This document shows, piece after piece, positions 36,401 to 64,000 of a DNA stretch of 64,000 nucleotides; position 1 is the stretch's first letter; each line of letters begins with the position of its first letter. The stretch spans positions 18,337,971-18,401,970 of the forward strand of contig NC_003070.9 in assembly GCF_000001735.4 (NCBI RefSeq), read 5' to 3'. The notes beneath the pieces were generated by a model. It was not told where the DNA came from. It ran no database searches and saw only the letters and a list, made by a program, of their open reading frames with translations. Origin of the DNA: Arabidopsis thaliana. Lineage: Eukaryota > Streptophyta > Magnoliopsida > Brassicales > Brassicaceae. Both the position numbers and the translations under genes were made by a program.

Positions 36401-37366
36401 CCTATTCCAACTGAAAGTGCAAAACTATTCAACATTGGCTAATTTTTGACCTTGATATGCTACAATTTCACTCACTCGACTATAATCCAAGAACGAAGCC
36501 TCATATACCACAAATTTCTTACAAACCGTTAAGAAATCACCGAGATGAACATAAATTTCCAAGTCACCTATACTAAAGATAAACTAGTAGGACAGATTCA
36601 TGTGTTCTAGAACACACTTACGGAGGAGTCCTGAAAACAATGCCAAACACCTTGTTCTCATCATCGTTAGAAACAGACATCACCTCGCAACCAGTTTTCT
36701 TGTGTTTGAAGAGAACAGCCTTAGATTTACACTCTGAGATAAACTCTTCAGAGACTTTCTCAAATCCAAGCTTCTCAGCCTCATCTTGACCTACATTTGA
36801 CTCTCATCAGAACACTATTTAACCAAAAACATAAATCAAATATGAGAAGAAAATGTTCCATTTTATCCTAACGCAGGTATAGTGTCAATTTGATCAAAAG
36901 CCCAAGGAAATTTCTCTATAAGAGAGTGTTTGTGGAGTAAAGTAACATCAACTAAACACAAATTTCACCAACGAGAAACACTCTGAATCTAGAAACTACT
37001 CGGAAAATAGAAACATTTGAAATTTTACAGAGAAAGAGTACAGATTCAATTCCAGCTAAAGAGTTTGATTATCTCACCGGGATAAGAAGAAGGTGCGGAT
37101 TGTGTAGCGACGGCGCGAATAGATAAGCGAGAGAACTGTCCATTGAGACCACGACTCGCGGCGGAGAGTAGTTTCAAGCCTCGTCGTAGAAATAGCCGTC
37201 TCCCAGCAGCTTCTAGAGTAGAAAGCCGGCGAATGTTGCGGCCGGAGGCACCGACGACGGTCGTTGACGATGAGGGAGACAAGTAAGAGCGAGGGAGCTG
37301 GCGGAAAGAGCGGAAGAAGAGAGAGGTCGAAGTAATGGTCGAGGAACAAGTTAATGACCGGAGCAT
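30435..37366 (-). CDS. PREP2: Presequence protease 2, organellar M16C zinc metallopeptidase
   Basis: Nineteen exons on the minus strand encode 1080 residues: 37078-37366, 36622-36790, 36153-36327, 35932-36064, 35743-35813, 35288-35371, 35066-35156, 34429-34949, 34184-34348, 33892-34110, 33686-33813, 32824-33013, 32157-32240, 31980-32077, 31556-31820, 31288-31450, 31006-31186, 30838-30909, 30435-30579. All sum in frame. The first ~85 residues are Ser/Arg-rich and lack acidic residues, a dual chloroplast/mitochondrial transit peptide. The inverted zinc motif HILEH is at 161-165, with the downstream Glu region in the helix containing FYNLVDVYLDAVF. It degrades freed targeting peptides inside organelles. 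The intron after 35743 has a GC donor. Identified from memory as At1g49630. Confidence 0.95.
35568..35593. repeat. (AC)n microsatellite in a PREP2 intron
   Basis: A pure CA/AC dinucleotide run of about 12 units lies in the intron between exons 5 and 6 of PREP2. No function is evident; useful only as a polymorphic marker. Confidence 0.85.
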
Positions 37367-37726
37367 GGCTACCGGAATATTTTCTCCGGCAAAGACTGTG
37401 CTTAAGGATGCGAATAGTTTAATCCGACCGCGAGGAGTTTTAAAGCGGTTCGGTTCGAAAATTTAAACCGGAGGTGCAAATTTCGAAATCTATGTGTATG
37501 GACCTAACCGGTTATTGATATGGCCGAACAATCTTATACGAATGATTTATCGAATATACAGGAGTTTGATACACAAATTCACAGCAATTAGAGATTAAAA
37601 TCATAAGTTATTTGTATGTTCAACTCTCCGAAATTTGACGATTAAAATCATAAATTATTATTAAAGTTAACAATATGATTATATAAAAGGATTATGTCAT
37701 CTAATACCATACTTGAGCATCAAGAT

Positions 37727-38674
37727 TCAACTTATGATAAACTCCAAAAACTTCTGCATCAATTTCGAAGCATTTTGAGAATTATGGTTATGGAGATGGA
37801 AGCAGTGTCCTTCCTCTTCTTCCTCAATCACCTCAACACTTCCTTTCCACTGACTCTTCTCCAGCTTCGCCGCATAAGCCAATCCTTGCCGCCAAAACAC
37901 ATCTTTTCCGGCAACCGCAACCAAAACCTTTTCACATCCCATCTCGGAAACATCCGATCCGGATCCAACAACATTAAACCACGGATCATTCACTCCATCA
38001 ACACTATTCGGGCTAACGATATTTTCCCAAATATATGCGATCTTGTTTCTGACTTCTCCGTCTTGTACATCGTGTTCGTCGATCGGTTCTTTCCCCCAAA
38101 AACCTGGATGCACCATAACAATCCCTTTGATTGTAGGGCTAAGCTTCTCCTTACCAGCTCTTATTCCCATGTGATGCGATATATTGGCTCCGGCACTATC
38201 TCCGGCGATAAAAACTCTGTCGAAATCAGCGTATTCATTAATCCAATCATCAGAATGAGAAAAGATCCACTGAATCGCAGACCATGAATCGTCGTAAGCC
38301 GCCGGAACCGGATGCTCTGGCGCAAGACGGTACTGAACCGACACGGCTAGGCAGTTAGCGGTTATAACAACCTCCGTGAGGTAGTTATGGTAAACCGGAG
38401 AGAAAGGAGATTGTATGATGTAAGCTCCGCCGTGAAAGTAGATGAGTAGAGGTATTTTGTTACCGGCGGTGTCGAGTTTTCTAGATTTGTTGGGGAGAAA
38501 CATACGGACGGAGAGGTTGTGGTCCGATGAGTACATGACGTCTTTCGAAACGACATCGTTTTGTGGGTTTAAAGACGTTGGTTTGATGTCGTTGCCGCTA
38601 AGCCGCTCGACTCGGCCGTTCTTATGAATTCGGATGAATGGTAGATGATGCTCTGTGGTTAGATCAGATTCCAT
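37727..38674 (-). CDS. CXE3: Carboxylesterase CXE3 (HSL/GID1-like alpha/beta hydrolase)
   Basis: Single-exon gene of 315 residues, starting MESDLTTEHH. The frame is open 29 codons further upstream, to an ATG at 38761, but alignment with CXE5 supports the start at 38674. The plant carboxylesterase features are intact: oxyanion motif HGG at 81-83, nucleophile Ser160 in GDSAGA, Asp258 in AGKD and His290 in EEGHCFH. The expected reaction is hydrolysis of small carboxyl esters; natural substrates are unknown to me. It is the first of three tandem copies on this strand, 360 bases downstream in coordinate from the PREP2 start. It has no signal or transit peptide, so it is probably cytosolic. Identified from memory as At1g49640. 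Confidence 0.92.
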   Translation of the reverse strand: MESDLTTEHHLPFIRIHKNGRVERLSGNDIKPTSLNPQNDVVSKDVMYSSDHNLSVRMFLPNKSRKLDTAGNKIPLLIYFHGGAYIIQSPFSPVYHNYLTEVVITANCLAVSVQYRLAPEHPVPAAYDDSWSAIQWIFSHSDDWINEYADFDRVFIAGDSAGANISHHMGIRAGKEKLSPTIKGIVMVHPGFWGKEPIDEHDVQDGEVRNKIAYIWENIVSPNSVDGVNDPWFNVVGSGSDVSEMGCEKVLVAVAGKDVFWRQGLAYAAKLEKSQWKGSVEVIEEEEEGHCFHLHNHNSQNASKLMQKFLEFIIS

Positions 38675-39392: not shown

Positions 39393-40517
39393 TTAACCAG
39401 TGATAAACTCCACAAATCTCTTCATGAAGCTGGGAGCATTTTCAGAACTTGGATTTAAGAGATGGAAGCAATGCTCTTCATCTTCTTCCTCAATCACCTC
39501 CACCTCTCCTTTCCACCCACTCTTCTTTAGCTTCGCCGCGTAAGCTAATCCTTGCCGCCAAAACACATCTTTCCCAGCCACCTCAACCAAAACCTTGTCA
39601 CATCCCATCCCGGAAAAATTCGACCCGGATCCAACCACATTAAACCACGGATCATCCGCTCCATCAACACTATTCGGACTCACAATTTTCTCCCAAACTT
39701 CTGCAACTCCGTCTCTGATCTCTCTATCTTGCACATCGTGCTCATCGACCGGATCTTTCCCCCAAATCGCTGGATGCACAATCACAGTCCCTTTGATTCT
39801 AGGCTTAAGCTTCTCTTTACCAGCTCTCATAGCCATGTGATGAGATATATTACCACCGGCACTATCTCCGGCGAGAAAAACTCTTTCGAAATCAGCGTAT
39901 TTGTTAATCCAATCTTCTTCACCAGATCCACAGGAATGTGAGAAAATCCATTGAATAGCAGACCATGTATCTTCATAGGCAGCCGGAACCGGATCTTCCG
40001 GTGCACGGCGGTATTGAACCGAGACGGCGAGGCAGTTAGCGGATTTAACTACCTCCGTGAGGAAATTGTGGTAGATTGGGGAGAAAGGGGATTCGTTTAT
40101 CCAAGCTCCGCCGTGGAAGTAGATAAGTAGAGGGAGTTTGTTACCGGCGGCGAGTTGTGTTGATTTGTGAGGGAGAAAGAGACGAACGGAGAGGTTATGC
40201 CCCGGTGAGTAGACAACGTCTTTTGAAACGACGTCGTTTCGTGGGTTTAGAGAAGCCGGGACTGTTTCGGTGCCGGAAAGACGTTCGATACGACCGTCTT
40301 TGTAAACCCTGACGAACGGAGGATGCTCGGAGATGATTTCAGATGAAGAGTGTGAACAAATGCAACGAAGAGTGGTTGGAGTTGATAGTCGGCGAATGTT
40401 GCGGCCTGAGACGGCGATGGTGGTCGGTGAGGAGTAAGAGCGAGGGAGTTGGCGAAAGAAGCGGAGGAAGAGAGAGGGTGAAGCAAGTGAAGAAGAACAA
40501 GTGATTCTTCGGAGCAT
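39393..40517 (-). CDS. CXE4: Carboxylesterase CXE4 with a PREP2-derived N-terminal targeting sequence
   Basis: Single exon of 374 residues from the ATG at 40517; the reading frame is open 28 codons further up to a second ATG-like start. Residues ~60-374 are a full plant carboxylesterase: HGG 135-137, Ser219 in GDSAGG, Asp317 in AGKD and His349 in EEHCFH. The first ~46 residues (MLRRITCSSSLASPS, FRQLPRSYSSP, SGRNIRRLST) have no match in CXE3 or CXE5 but closely match the start of the PREP2 transit peptide, and about 28 bases of leader also match. The protein is therefore probably imported into chloroplasts or mitochondria, unlike its siblings. The esterase start MESEI became internal SSSEI. 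Identified from memory as At1g49650. Confidence 0.92.
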   Translation of the reverse strand: MLRRITCSSSLASPSLFLRFFRQLPRSYSSPTTIAVSGRNIRRLSTPTTLRCICSHSSSEIISEHPPFVRVYKDGRIERLSGTETVPASLNPRNDVVSKDVVYSPGHNLSVRLFLPHKSTQLAAGNKLPLLIYFHGGAWINESPFSPIYHNFLTEVVKSANCLAVSVQYRRAPEDPVPAAYEDTWSAIQWIFSHSCGSGEEDWINKYADFERVFLAGDSAGGNISHHMAMRAGKEKLKPRIKGTVIVHPAIWGKDPVDEHDVQDREIRDGVAEVWEKIVSPNSVDGADDPWFNVVGSGSNFSGMGCDKVLVEVAGKDVFWRQGLAYAAKLKKSGWKGEVEVIEEEDEEHCFHLLNPSSENAPSFMKRFVEFITG

Positions 40518-40806
40518 GGTTCCCGGAATATTTTCTACGGCGAAAGAGGTTGCACTTTTTTGGATAAGGATTTTTATGAAGATAGATAAACCGACCGACA
40601 AGATAAAAATCTAATAAGAATTTGAATACAAAAAAAAACAAATTAATATTTTACACATATTTTTTTCTCATGTTGAAGAAAATAATAACACACATTTAAC
40701 AGGTTCATATAACTCTCACACAGTCTGAAATTCATGTATTTTATTTCTTAAAAACAAGATTACATGATCATGAAGAACATTTACACAAAAAACATTCTTT
40801 CAAGTT
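40518..40806. other. CXE4 leader/promoter and CXE5 3' flank
   Basis: 40518-40545 is the leader segment similar to the PREP2 leader at 37367-37395 (CGGAATATTTTCT.CGGC on the plus strand). The rest is AT-rich spacer without further features. Confidence 0.6.
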
Positions 40807-41766
40807 TCAACCAATAATAAACTCGACAAACTTCTTCAAGAATTTCAAAGCCTTATCAGATTTAGGATTCTGCAAATGAAACACATGGTCCTCACCTTCT
40901 TCCTCAACCACCTCAACAGTACCTTCCCACTCACACTTCTCCAGCTTCGCCGCATAAGCCAATCCTTGCCTAACAAACACATCTTTCCCAGCTACCGCAA
41001 CCAAAACCTTATCACATCCCAACCCAGAAAAATCCGACCCGGATCCGTTTACATTAAACAACGGATCATCCGTCCCATTAACACTATTCGGACTCGCAAT
41101 CTTCTCCCAAATTTCCGCGATTCCGCTTCTCGTTTCTTTATCTTGCACATCGTATTCATCAACCGGATCTGTTCCCCAGAAAGCTGGATGAACAACAGCA
41201 ATACCTTTGATTTTGAGATCTAGCTTCTTCTCTTTACCAGCTTTCATCGCCATGTGATGCGATATGTTACCGCCTGCGCTATCTCCGCCGAGGAAAACTT
41301 TACCGAAATCGGCGTGTTTGTTAATCCAATCTACAGGACCAGATCCATTAGAATGAGCAAAAATCCACTGAATCGCGGACCATACATCTTCATAAGCCGC
41401 CGGAACAGGATCTTCCGGTGCACGGCGATACTGAACAGAGACAGCGAGGCAGTTAGCGGATTTGACTACTTCAGTGAGGTAATTGTGGTAGAGTGGGGAG
41501 AAAGGTGACTCGATGATCCAAGCTCCGCCGTGGATGTAGATAAGTAGAGGGAGCTTGTTACCGGCGGTGAGTTTTGTTGATTTGTGAGGGAGGAAGAGAC
41601 GAACGGAGAGGTTATTCTCCGGTGAGTATATAACGTCTTTTGAAACGACGTCGTATGTTGGATCTAGAGAGGCCGGGATGGTATCGGTGCCGATGAGTCG
41701 TTCTACACGACCGTCTTTGTAAATCCGGCAGAAAGGAAGAAACTCGGAGGCGATTTCAGATTCCAT
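40807..41766 (-). CDS. CXE5: Carboxylesterase CXE5
   Basis: Single-exon gene of 319 residues. The plant carboxylesterase fold is complete: oxyanion HGG 79-81, nucleophile Ser163 in GGDSAGG, Asp262 in AGKD and His294 in EDHVFH. It is most similar to CXE4 over the catalytic domain and lacks any targeting extension, so it should be cytosolic. The three genes stand head to tail with spacings of a few hundred bases, a tandem expansion. The 5' leader contains a (GTTGGA)n tract at 41794-41824 on the plus strand. The substrate is unknown; the Arabidopsis protein is reported to hydrolyse model aryl esters. Identified from memory as At1g49660. Confidence 0.93.
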   Translation of the reverse strand: MESEIASEFLPFCRIYKDGRVERLIGTDTIPASLDPTYDVVSKDVIYSPENNLSVRLFLPHKSTKLTAGNKLPLLIYIHGGAWIIESPFSPLYHNYLTEVVKSANCLAVSVQYRRAPEDPVPAAYEDVWSAIQWIFAHSNGSGPVDWINKHADFGKVFLGGDSAGGNISHHMAMKAGKEKKLDLKIKGIAVVHPAFWGTDPVDEYDVQDKETRSGIAEIWEKIASPNSVNGTDDPLFNVNGSGSDFSGLGCDKVLVAVAGKDVFVRQGLAYAAKLEKCEWEGTVEVVEEEGEDHVFHLQNPKSDKALKFLKKFVEFIIG

Positions 41767-43620
41767 TGATTGAAGAAGAATGAAGAAGAGTGTTGTTAGT
41801 TGGAGTTGGAGTTGGAGTTGGAGTGAGCCTTTTTAATTATTAGTAGTGAATTGCTATTTAAATGAAAATAATTGTTCTTTGCATCGACGCGTAGCAATAA
41901 GAGTGGCCACGTAGCTTTTTTCTGTTTTTTTTTTTTTTTTTTTCCTTTTTAATTTATTTTTTGTTTGGTATGTAAAATTAAAGGAATAATGACAAAAAGA
42001 AAAGCAAATGGATGCTTTAGGTAAGGTTTTGATTACTTGCAAGTTACAACAGCTAATATGGGCAGATATTGACAACTTATCTTCAAAGTTCAAAGGACCA
42101 AATCTTTTTTGTCTAGTCCTTTTTAGAGTATCAAATATTCTTCTAGTTTAGGATTCTATTTCAAGGAAAAACACATTTGAAAAATTCTTTCCAATAGTAC
42201 ATCATTCAAACATTTATATAGAGTTTAATACATGAGCTTATATTCCAAACAAGCATTTTGAAAACATTTCTTTCAAAACAGGCACTCTAAACAGTAAAAG
42301 CATATAATAACTCCAATTTTTATTGTTACGGACATTTTTGCCCTTAAACTATGAGCTGGAGTTGAGAATGAGGTGAAAAGAATGCGTTTATCTTCTAAAA
42401 AATGCATCTCCATCTCTGATTCAATTTTAAGTTTCTTTTGACATTCAGAGATATATGGCTTAGATAGTGGACTTGCAGCTTTGACGGTAGGCGTGAAGCT
42501 TTGACGGTAGCACAAAGATTTGGTGGTGGTTCACGGCTTTGACGGCGAGGGGTAACGAACGGCGTCAATGGTAAACGCTATACCCTAGAATTAGACTTGT
42601 AAACCCAAACCGTCAAATATACAGTCTACAATTCTTACATACACACAATAACACAACACTACAACCATCCTCATTATCATCAAACACCATTAACATGAAC
42701 AAAAATCAATGTACTTGTAGACATGATTATGAACATCAATTGAGCAATCAACAAAGTATCAATCACTTCTTGAGTTCCTTAACCTGCACAAAAATCACTG
42801 AACAAAAAAACGTGCAAATCGTAATACCAAATCGTGGGACTTTTTTGTTTCTTGTTTTTTTTTTCCAGATCTCAAAATGTGGGATGTTAAAAATCTAGAT
42901 CGCATTCACATCTCATGAGGACCAATTGTTAGTCGTCTGAATTTCTAATCGTCGCTGACATCACTCTGTAATCAATGACTCCAAAGTTGTTGGTGTTGGT
43001 CGCAAGTATTTTTGATTTCTAATGTAAAACGTAAAAGTTCATCAACAAAGAAAGAGCAACATCATCTCTCTGTAAGGGTAAAAACGACTTTCCCCAGGAA
43101 AGAAGTGCCTAAATCTGCCTAAAATAAAATATATATCTAAGACAAATGCCTTATTTGCAATAAACTCTTAATACATCACACTACCCTTTTATTATATACT
43201 TTACTTGTTTTTATTTTTTTATGTAAACAAAATTACATGTTATTGTTTTATACCTGACTTCAGAAATTTATGGCAACAATAAACAAATAATAAAAAGAAA
43301 AACCCATTTTCCACATTAAAATCATATAATGCGTTATTAGTTAGTTAATTGTCAAAGAAATACACAATAATATTTGATGCTTAAACGATGCAACCTATTA
43401 TTCAGTTGTTTCTTTTATTTTTGTGATGGTGTAAATGTTACTTTGACGTTTAACTTTAGATTTTAGAAAACTTTCTCCTCTGTTTATTGTAAACATAAGC
43501 TTAAAGAACTCTCTACTTACTAAGCCCTTTTTTGCCTCCAAAGAAGAAGAAGAAGAAGAAAGGAAAAGCTCCACTCATGTATAGACTCCCAAACTGGATT
43601 TTGCTTTGTGGATGTTTTGT
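41767..43620. other. Intergenic region, no gene recognised
   Basis: After the CXE5 leader, the spacer includes a T20 tract near 41921-41943 and two copies of AAGCTTTGACGGTAG-like sequence at about 42478-42510. ORFs at 42273-42515 and 42695-42898 have no motif. The 42440-42580 block is richer in GC than its surroundings and may be an old insertion, but no ends could be found. Confidence 0.4.
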
Positions 43621-62855: not shown

Positions 62856-64000
62856 ATGGGTACTCACATTGATATCAACAACTTAGGCGGCGATACTTCT
62901 AGAGGGAATGAGTCAAAGCCATTGGCGAGGCAGTCTTCGTTATATTCCTTAACGTTTGATGAGCTTCAGAGCACATTAGGTGAGCCGGGGAAAGATTTTG
63001 GGTCTATGAATATGGATGAGTTACTCAAGAACATATGGACTGCTGAGGATACTCAAGCCTTTATGACTACTACATCTTCGGTTGCAGCCCCGGGACCTAG
63101 TGGTTTTGTTCCGGGAGGAAATGGTTTACAGAGGCAAGGCTCCTTGACCTTGCCTAGAACGCTTAGTCAGAAGACTGTCGATGAAGTCTGGAAATACCTG
63201 AATTCGAAAGAAGGTAGTAATGGGAATACTGGAACGGATGCGCTTGAGAGGCAACAGACTTTAGGGGAAATGACTCTGGAAGATTTCTTACTCCGTGCTG
63301 GCGTTGTTAAAGAAGATAATACTCAGCAGAACGAAAACAGTAGTAGCGGGTTTTATGCTAACAACGGTGCTGCTGGTTTGGAGTTTGGATTTGGTCAGCC
63401 GAATCAAAACAGCATATCGTTCAACGGGAACAATAGTTCTATGATCATGAATCAAGCACCTGGTTTAGGCCTCAAAGTTGGTGGAACCATGCAGCAGCAG
63501 CAGCAGCCACATCAGCAGCAGTTGCAGCAGCCACATCAGAGACTGCCTCCAACTATCTTTCCAAAACAAGCGAATGTAACATTTGCGGCGCCTGTAAATA
63601 TGGTCAACAGGGGTTTATTTGAGACTAGCGCAGATGGTCCAGCCAACAGTAATATGGGAGGAGCAGGGGGTACTGTTACAGCTACTTCTCCTGGGACGAG
63701 CAGTGCAGAAAACAATACTTGGTCATCACCAGTTCCTTACGTGTTTGGTCGGGGAAGAAGAAGCAATACGGGCCTGGAGAAGGTTGTTGAGAGAAGGCAA
63801 AAGAGAATGATCAAGAATCGGGAATCCGCTGCTAGATCAAGGGCTCGAAAACAGGTAAAGTTACCGTTTTGTTCTCAAAAACTTTGATATCAATATCATC
63901 TAACCAAACTGCCATTACCGTTTTCTTTTCAAGAACTTTGAAATCATTTTGATGTTTTGGCTAAACCTCAGGCTTATACCTTGGAACTGGAAGCTGAGAT
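62856..64000 (+). CDS. ABF1: ABA-responsive bZIP factor ABF1 (3' end outside window)
   Basis: The start is the ATG at 62856 (MGTHIDINNLGG); the frame is open upstream but has no ATG. Coding exons 62856-63854 and 63972-64000, then cut by the window. All conserved AREB/ABF phosphorylation blocks are visible: C1 RQSSLYSLTFDELQSTLG, C2 MDELLKNIWTAE, C3 LQRQGSLTLPRTLSQKTVDEVW and the LERQQTLGEMTLEDFLLRAG block, with R-x-x-S/T sites for SnRK2 kinases. A Gln/His-rich stretch follows, then the basic region RRQKRMIKNRESAARSRARK and the first leucine-zipper residues (AYTLELEAEI). It binds ACGT-core ABRE sites and activates ABA and cold/drought genes in the nucleus. Identified from memory as At1g49720, normally 392 residues. 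Confidence 0.95.

Follow-up and report, generated by a model that had tools for sequence, protein, structure and literature searches.

CXE4 of Arabidopsis very probably carries a presequence copied from its neighbour PREP2

Introduction

Presequences copied from other nuclear genes are known in plants: rice rps11-1 has taken its signal from atp2, Arabidopsis sdh3 from hsp70 and carrot rps10 from hsp22, the receivers being genes transferred from the mitochondrion that needed such a signal (PMC2631504). Relocalised plant duplicates have also been described, in work that infers the changes from predicted targeting (PMC7086175). Among the carboxylesterases (CXEs), the Clade I members AtCXE5 and AtCXE12 are (Z)-3-hexenyl acetate esterases (PMC11986948), and according to a structural paper AtCXE4 alone among 20 CXEs possesses an N-terminal mitochondrial transit peptide, in a statement that leaves PREP2 unmentioned (PMC11294565).

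Here, we report that CXE4 is very probably a chimeric gene, in which a piece of PREP2 comprising leader and codons 1-50 is joined to a neighbouring CXE copy, and whose product is a mitochondrial precursor. Like rps11-1, sdh3 and rps10, CXE4 would owe its targeting to part of a presequence duplicated from another nuclear gene, but its receiver is a nuclear tandem esterase instead of a gene transferred from the mitochondrion, and its donor is its neighbour, unlike in those cases as listed (PMC2631504). As in the relocalised duplicates of PMC7086175, it has organelle targeting that its siblings lack, whereas here both the signal donor and the joint can be named. CXE4 shares the esterase clade and the catalytic motifs of AtCXE5 and AtCXE12 and differs from them in its cleaved presequence; it points to a mitochondrial esterase in a clade that includes green-leaf-volatile esterases. 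With the transit peptide already in print (PMC11294565), the PREP2 origin is the new part, and we found no earlier report of it in the main texts of the open-licence literature. CXE4 adds a clear new case to the presequences gained by copying a signal that already existed in another gene, and at its locus donor, receiver, unfused siblings and joint still lie side by side, with the new address tied to a reported mitochondrial N-terminus. The locus could serve for testing by what steps an enzyme lacking a presequence is turned into a mitochondrial one, how a working cleavage site originates beside a captured signal, and what role each half of a dual-targeting peptide plays.

Results and discussion

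Gene content of the locus

The window that we analysed is a stretch of 64,000 nucleotides of the Arabidopsis thaliana genome (G000:C1:18337971-18401970), and coordinates below are positions within it unless another contig is given. The names CXE3, CXE4, PREP1 and PREP2 are those that we take these genes to bear. A published peptide is exactly identical to part of the CXE4 open reading frame (ORF), which identifies CXE4 as AT1G49650, and CXE5 appears in print as At1g49660 (PMC11986948). The donor is a gene of the presequence-protease type, as its ORF at 34366-34938 matches the PDB entry 2fge_A, a zinc metalloprotease of the insulinase family (1.4e-91), and also Pfam Peptidase_M16_C. PREP2 and CXE4 are read from the minus strand, with start codons at 37366 and 40517, respectively, about 3 kb apart. 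The coding region of CXE4 is a single open frame, with no intron in the reading frame; its esterase body (39393..40343, minus strand) is a member of Abhydrolase_3 (PF07859, 193.3 bits), with the catalytic motifs HGGAW and GDSAGGN at residues 135 and 217. On the same strand lie CXE3 (37727..38674) and CXE5 (40807..41766), siblings whose N-termini carry no presequence.

Homology between the two gene starts

A reading made from the sequence alone had proposed that residues 1-46 of CXE4 line up with residues 1-50 of PREP2, and that the likeness extends over about 28 bases of leader. Both similarities were found where they had been placed. Over the 46 aligned codons (CXE4 codons 1-46, 40380..40517; PREP2 codons 1-50, the first half of exon 1, 37217..37366; both minus strand), 33 of 46 residues and 76.8% of the nucleotides were identical, and the pairwise DNA alignment of the two starts reached a local score of 153, whereas 300 dinucleotide shuffles gave at most 34. 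The DNA similarity also went beyond the peptide, into the leaders directly upstream of the two start codons (PREP2, 37367..37398; CXE4, 40518..40551; both minus strand), where it covered about 30 bp. Aligned by themselves, the leaders scored 37, a value equalled by none of 3866 ATG leaders (the 45-mers preceding ATG, taken from the window and seven other loci). Targeting peptides are alike in composition, being rich in R and S, and two of them could in principle resemble each other by chance or convergence; this explanation is hardly credible for genes 3 kb apart whose DNA similarity, untranslated leader included, lies so far above the shuffles, and we rejected it on the leader homology and the shuffle controls.

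Two protein searches and one DNA search located the segment at no fewer than three places in the genome, namely PREP2, PREP1 on C3 and CXE4, these counts being lower bounds. Neither CXE3 nor CXE5 was among the genome matches listed for the segment in the protein and DNA searches, in line with the suggestion that the tandem siblings lack it. Both have short acidic N-termini, as do four outgroup CXEs, so the presequence of CXE4 represents a gain. The targeting segments of CXE4 and of a second nuclear gene are thus homologous in their DNA, while the receiver's relatives, CXE3, CXE5 and the four outgroup CXEs, are without it.

Extent of the copy and position of the joint

A copy of PREP2 exon 1 had been proposed, which held for its first 50 codons but not for the exon as a whole. 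The similarity to CXE4 ends at PREP2 codon 50 (37217); exon 1 would end at 37078, as we read a GT donor in the sequence, and its remaining part (37078..37216, minus strand) is common to PREP1 up to codon 93 and absent from CXE4. Since the similarity stops about 139 bp before the exon end, the copy comprised only half an exon, with its joint away from the splice site. Whole-exon shuffling through an intron would suit a donor segment that sits in exon 1, but the joint falls inside that exon instead of at its boundary and CXE4 is one open frame, and we rejected this route as very improbable.

In the upstream direction, the similarity between PREP2 and CXE4 fades near -35. PREP1 and PREP2 fade there too, so the original copy could have been longer. 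Of the promoter-proximal DNA that had been thought to come along, about 30 bp of leader could be recognised, and no similarity was detected upstream of about -35. A strict alignment of the CXE5-CXE4 spacer with the CXE3-PREP2 spacer returned the leader alone (score 38, 0/300 shuffles), and under looser scoring 11 of 200 shuffles did as well; with no spacer homology beyond the leader, a larger duplicated block is unsupported by these comparisons.

After codon 46, and before the part common to CXE5, CXE4 reads ACTCCAACCACTCTTCGTTGCATTTGTTCACACTCTTC. When this linker (codons 47-58, 40344..40379, minus strand) was anchored at the body, the CXE5 leader was the best match among six CXE leaders, with a score of 19, the next best reaching 7. 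This score was equalled by 106 of 5000 shuffles and, in the anchored comparison, by 4 of about 20000 genomic 85-mers (slightly fewer than 20000, some draws inside 40200-42000 having been skipped), whereas by local score 254 of the 85-mers did as well. For each of the other five CXE leaders, at least 918 of 5000 shuffles did as well. Codons 47-58 are therefore probably derived from a former CXE 5'UTR, with moderate support from the anchored alignment, and CXE4 has nothing that corresponds to the CXE5 start codon. At the joint PREP2 reads TCTACTC, and a CCAACT array is present in the CXE5 leader; the ACTC common to both may mark the break, although this is suggestive only. The array in the CXE5 5'UTR is a perfect repeat of the hexamer AGTTGG (coding strand CCAACT), with 4.5 copies at 41798-41824, and lies where the CXE4 joint aligns.

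These observations point to a very probable origin for the gene. A local duplication would have copied the PREP2 leader and the first 50 codons of exon 1, for which the two homologies are the observed traces, and the copied piece, ending inside the exon, would have been fused to the 5' region of a CXE copy next to it. The homology of both coding start and leader at the DNA level agrees with the earlier proposal that a PREP2-derived start landed in front of a CXE copy. CXE4 has not retained the ancestral CXE start codon, and the esterase would therefore be made as a precursor, with residues 1-46 derived from PREP2 and the next 12 probably from the former 5'UTR.

Identity of the donor

The same N-terminal segment is present in PREP1, and it could have come from PREP1 or from the common ancestor of PREP1 and PREP2. 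The dS intervals would allow this, as they overlap between PREP2-CXE4 (0.58, 0.33-1.07; 46 codons) and PREP1-CXE4 (0.84, 0.45-1.91; start region). However, among 51 two-against-one sites, PREP2 and CXE4 agreed at 25, PREP1 and PREP2 at 14 and PREP1 and CXE4 at 12 (p 0.015 against one third). With the leaders, PREP2-CXE4 scored 37, PREP1-PREP2 33 and PREP1-CXE4 11, a value that 19 of 3866 chance leaders also attained. PREP1 appears to lie within a collinear block, since the best match elsewhere to the bZIP gene at 62856-63887 is at C3:6687956, at a distance of 56 kb from PREP1; the genome has 24 PF07859 matches, and not one of them is next to PREP1. From the two-against-one sites, the leader scores, the lack of a PF07859 match beside PREP1 and the distance of about 3 kb, PREP2 is most likely the donor, and an origin from PREP1 or from the common ancestor is improbable.

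Targeting and processing of CXE4

Residues 1-52 of CXE4 carry a net charge of +9, contain no D or E and have a maximal helix moment of 0.63, whereas the N-terminal 52 residues have net charges of -2 in CXE3 and -5 in CXE5. As CXE4 has no Met from residue 2 to 227, the next one being Met 228, a short form started at an AUG and containing the intact esterase is not possible.

Carrie et al. 2015 list an N-terminal peptide of AT1G49650, ICSHSSSEIISEHPPFVR, in Table 1, row 55, and this peptide was raised at least 3-fold in icp55 mitochondria (PMC4986872). It begins at CXE4 residue 53, after PTTLRC, and the 25 residues surrounding this N-terminus have a single match in the genome. The protein is thus cut after R51-C52, at the boundary of codons 52 and 53 (40362/40361, minus strand), in the linker, outside the PREP2-derived part and upstream of the ancestral CXE start. 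An Arg at -2 defines a class of cuts described for plant mitochondria (PMC4986872, PMC3095331). The N-terminomics study restricted its set to proteins with a mitochondrial SUBA score (PMC4986872); the peptide's response to the loss of a mitochondrial peptidase is a sign separate from that filter. In our reading, the precursor enters mitochondria and is cut after C52, with R51 at -2, presumably by the mitochondrial processing peptidase MPP. ICP55 would then probably remove I53, a step that the authors deduce, as their table gives a single N-terminal form of CXE4 (PMC4986872). This would leave about the size of the unfused siblings, as CXE4 without I53 has 321 residues, compared with 319 for CXE5 and 315 for CXE3. 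That the PREP2-derived segment directs mitochondrial import is supported in print by the N-terminus at residue 53. The sequence-only reading of a chimera with new targeting is supported by this mitochondrial N-terminus, and the siblings and outgroups argue for an ancestor without targeting. Neither of the two outcomes that this reading had named as refuting came up, the DNA similarity continuing into the leader and the reported N-terminus lying ahead of the ancestral CXE start.

Whether CXE4 goes to mitochondria and plastids alike, as its donor protease does, was also considered. Plant PREP is dual targeted (PMC3095331), and dual-targeted proteins are cleaved at a motif similar to the mitochondrial one (PMC4986872). 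However, PREP residues 51-85, which make up the second half of its targeting peptide and have a basic helix of their own, were not copied, and the main-text passages on AT1G49650 gave no report of it in plastids; dual targeting of CXE4 is rather unlikely. Only tentatively do we suggest a more detailed reading of the mitochondrial precursor, in which just the first half of a dual-targeting peptide was captured without the donor's cleavage region, the cut R51-C52|I53 came from the former CXE 5'UTR, and dual targeting was perhaps narrowed to mitochondria. If true, a mitochondrial precursor was put together from a neighbour's address and from DNA that had once been non-coding.

Age of the fusion and relationships of the CXE copies

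For the start region, dS between PREP1 and PREP2 was 0.68 (0.34-1.23), and for the bodies of the two genes it was 0.60 (0.51-0.70), based on 18 non-overlapping collinear matches of at least 60% identity that together comprised 1134 codons. For the esterases, the values were 0.50 (0.37-0.66) for CXE4-CXE5, 0.64 (0.47-0.80) for CXE3-CXE4 and 0.86 (0.66-1.15) for CXE3-CXE5. With dS about 0.5-0.6, the fusion is old, roughly the age of the split between PREP1 and PREP2, and judged by general divergence values it should be common to much of the Brassicaceae. In the shared segment dN/dS was 0.32, which, on the few sites of 46 codons, fits a constrained signal.

A tandem duplication running from a CXE5-like 5'UTR to PREP2 exon 1 could have made the joint in one step, but the present gene order would then require that a CXE copy was lost or arose later. 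This model predicts that CXE4 is nearest to CXE5, but the trees lean to CXE3+CXE4 instead (84/88 for protein, 90/93 for DNA; three outgroups used earlier, one of them long-branched, were left out), with the alternatives CXE4+CXE5 (p-AU 0.147) and CXE3+CXE5 (p-AU 0.09) unrejected. The body of CXE4 itself looks mosaic: up to aligned codon 127 the informative sites favour CXE5 by 59 to 22, and after it they favour CXE3 by 65 to 48, a pattern matched in extremity by 2 of 5000 permutations. A later conversion by CXE3 would reconcile the tree with the tandem duplication.

Further observations

In a survey of viral contigs for plant relatives, 25 pattern matches were obtained and 0 were confirmed. 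Directly before the PREP2 ATG, at 37372-37389, lies the near-palindrome CCGGAGAAAATATTCCGG, with CCGG or CCG ends that PREP1 and CXE4 have retained; a leader hairpin was rejected, as folding was no better than that of shuffles (z -0.95 and -0.54). Finally, the +1 frame of PREP2 exon 1 (37079-37367) is also similar to PREP1, with one stop, and to CXE4, most likely as a by-product of the DNA similarity.
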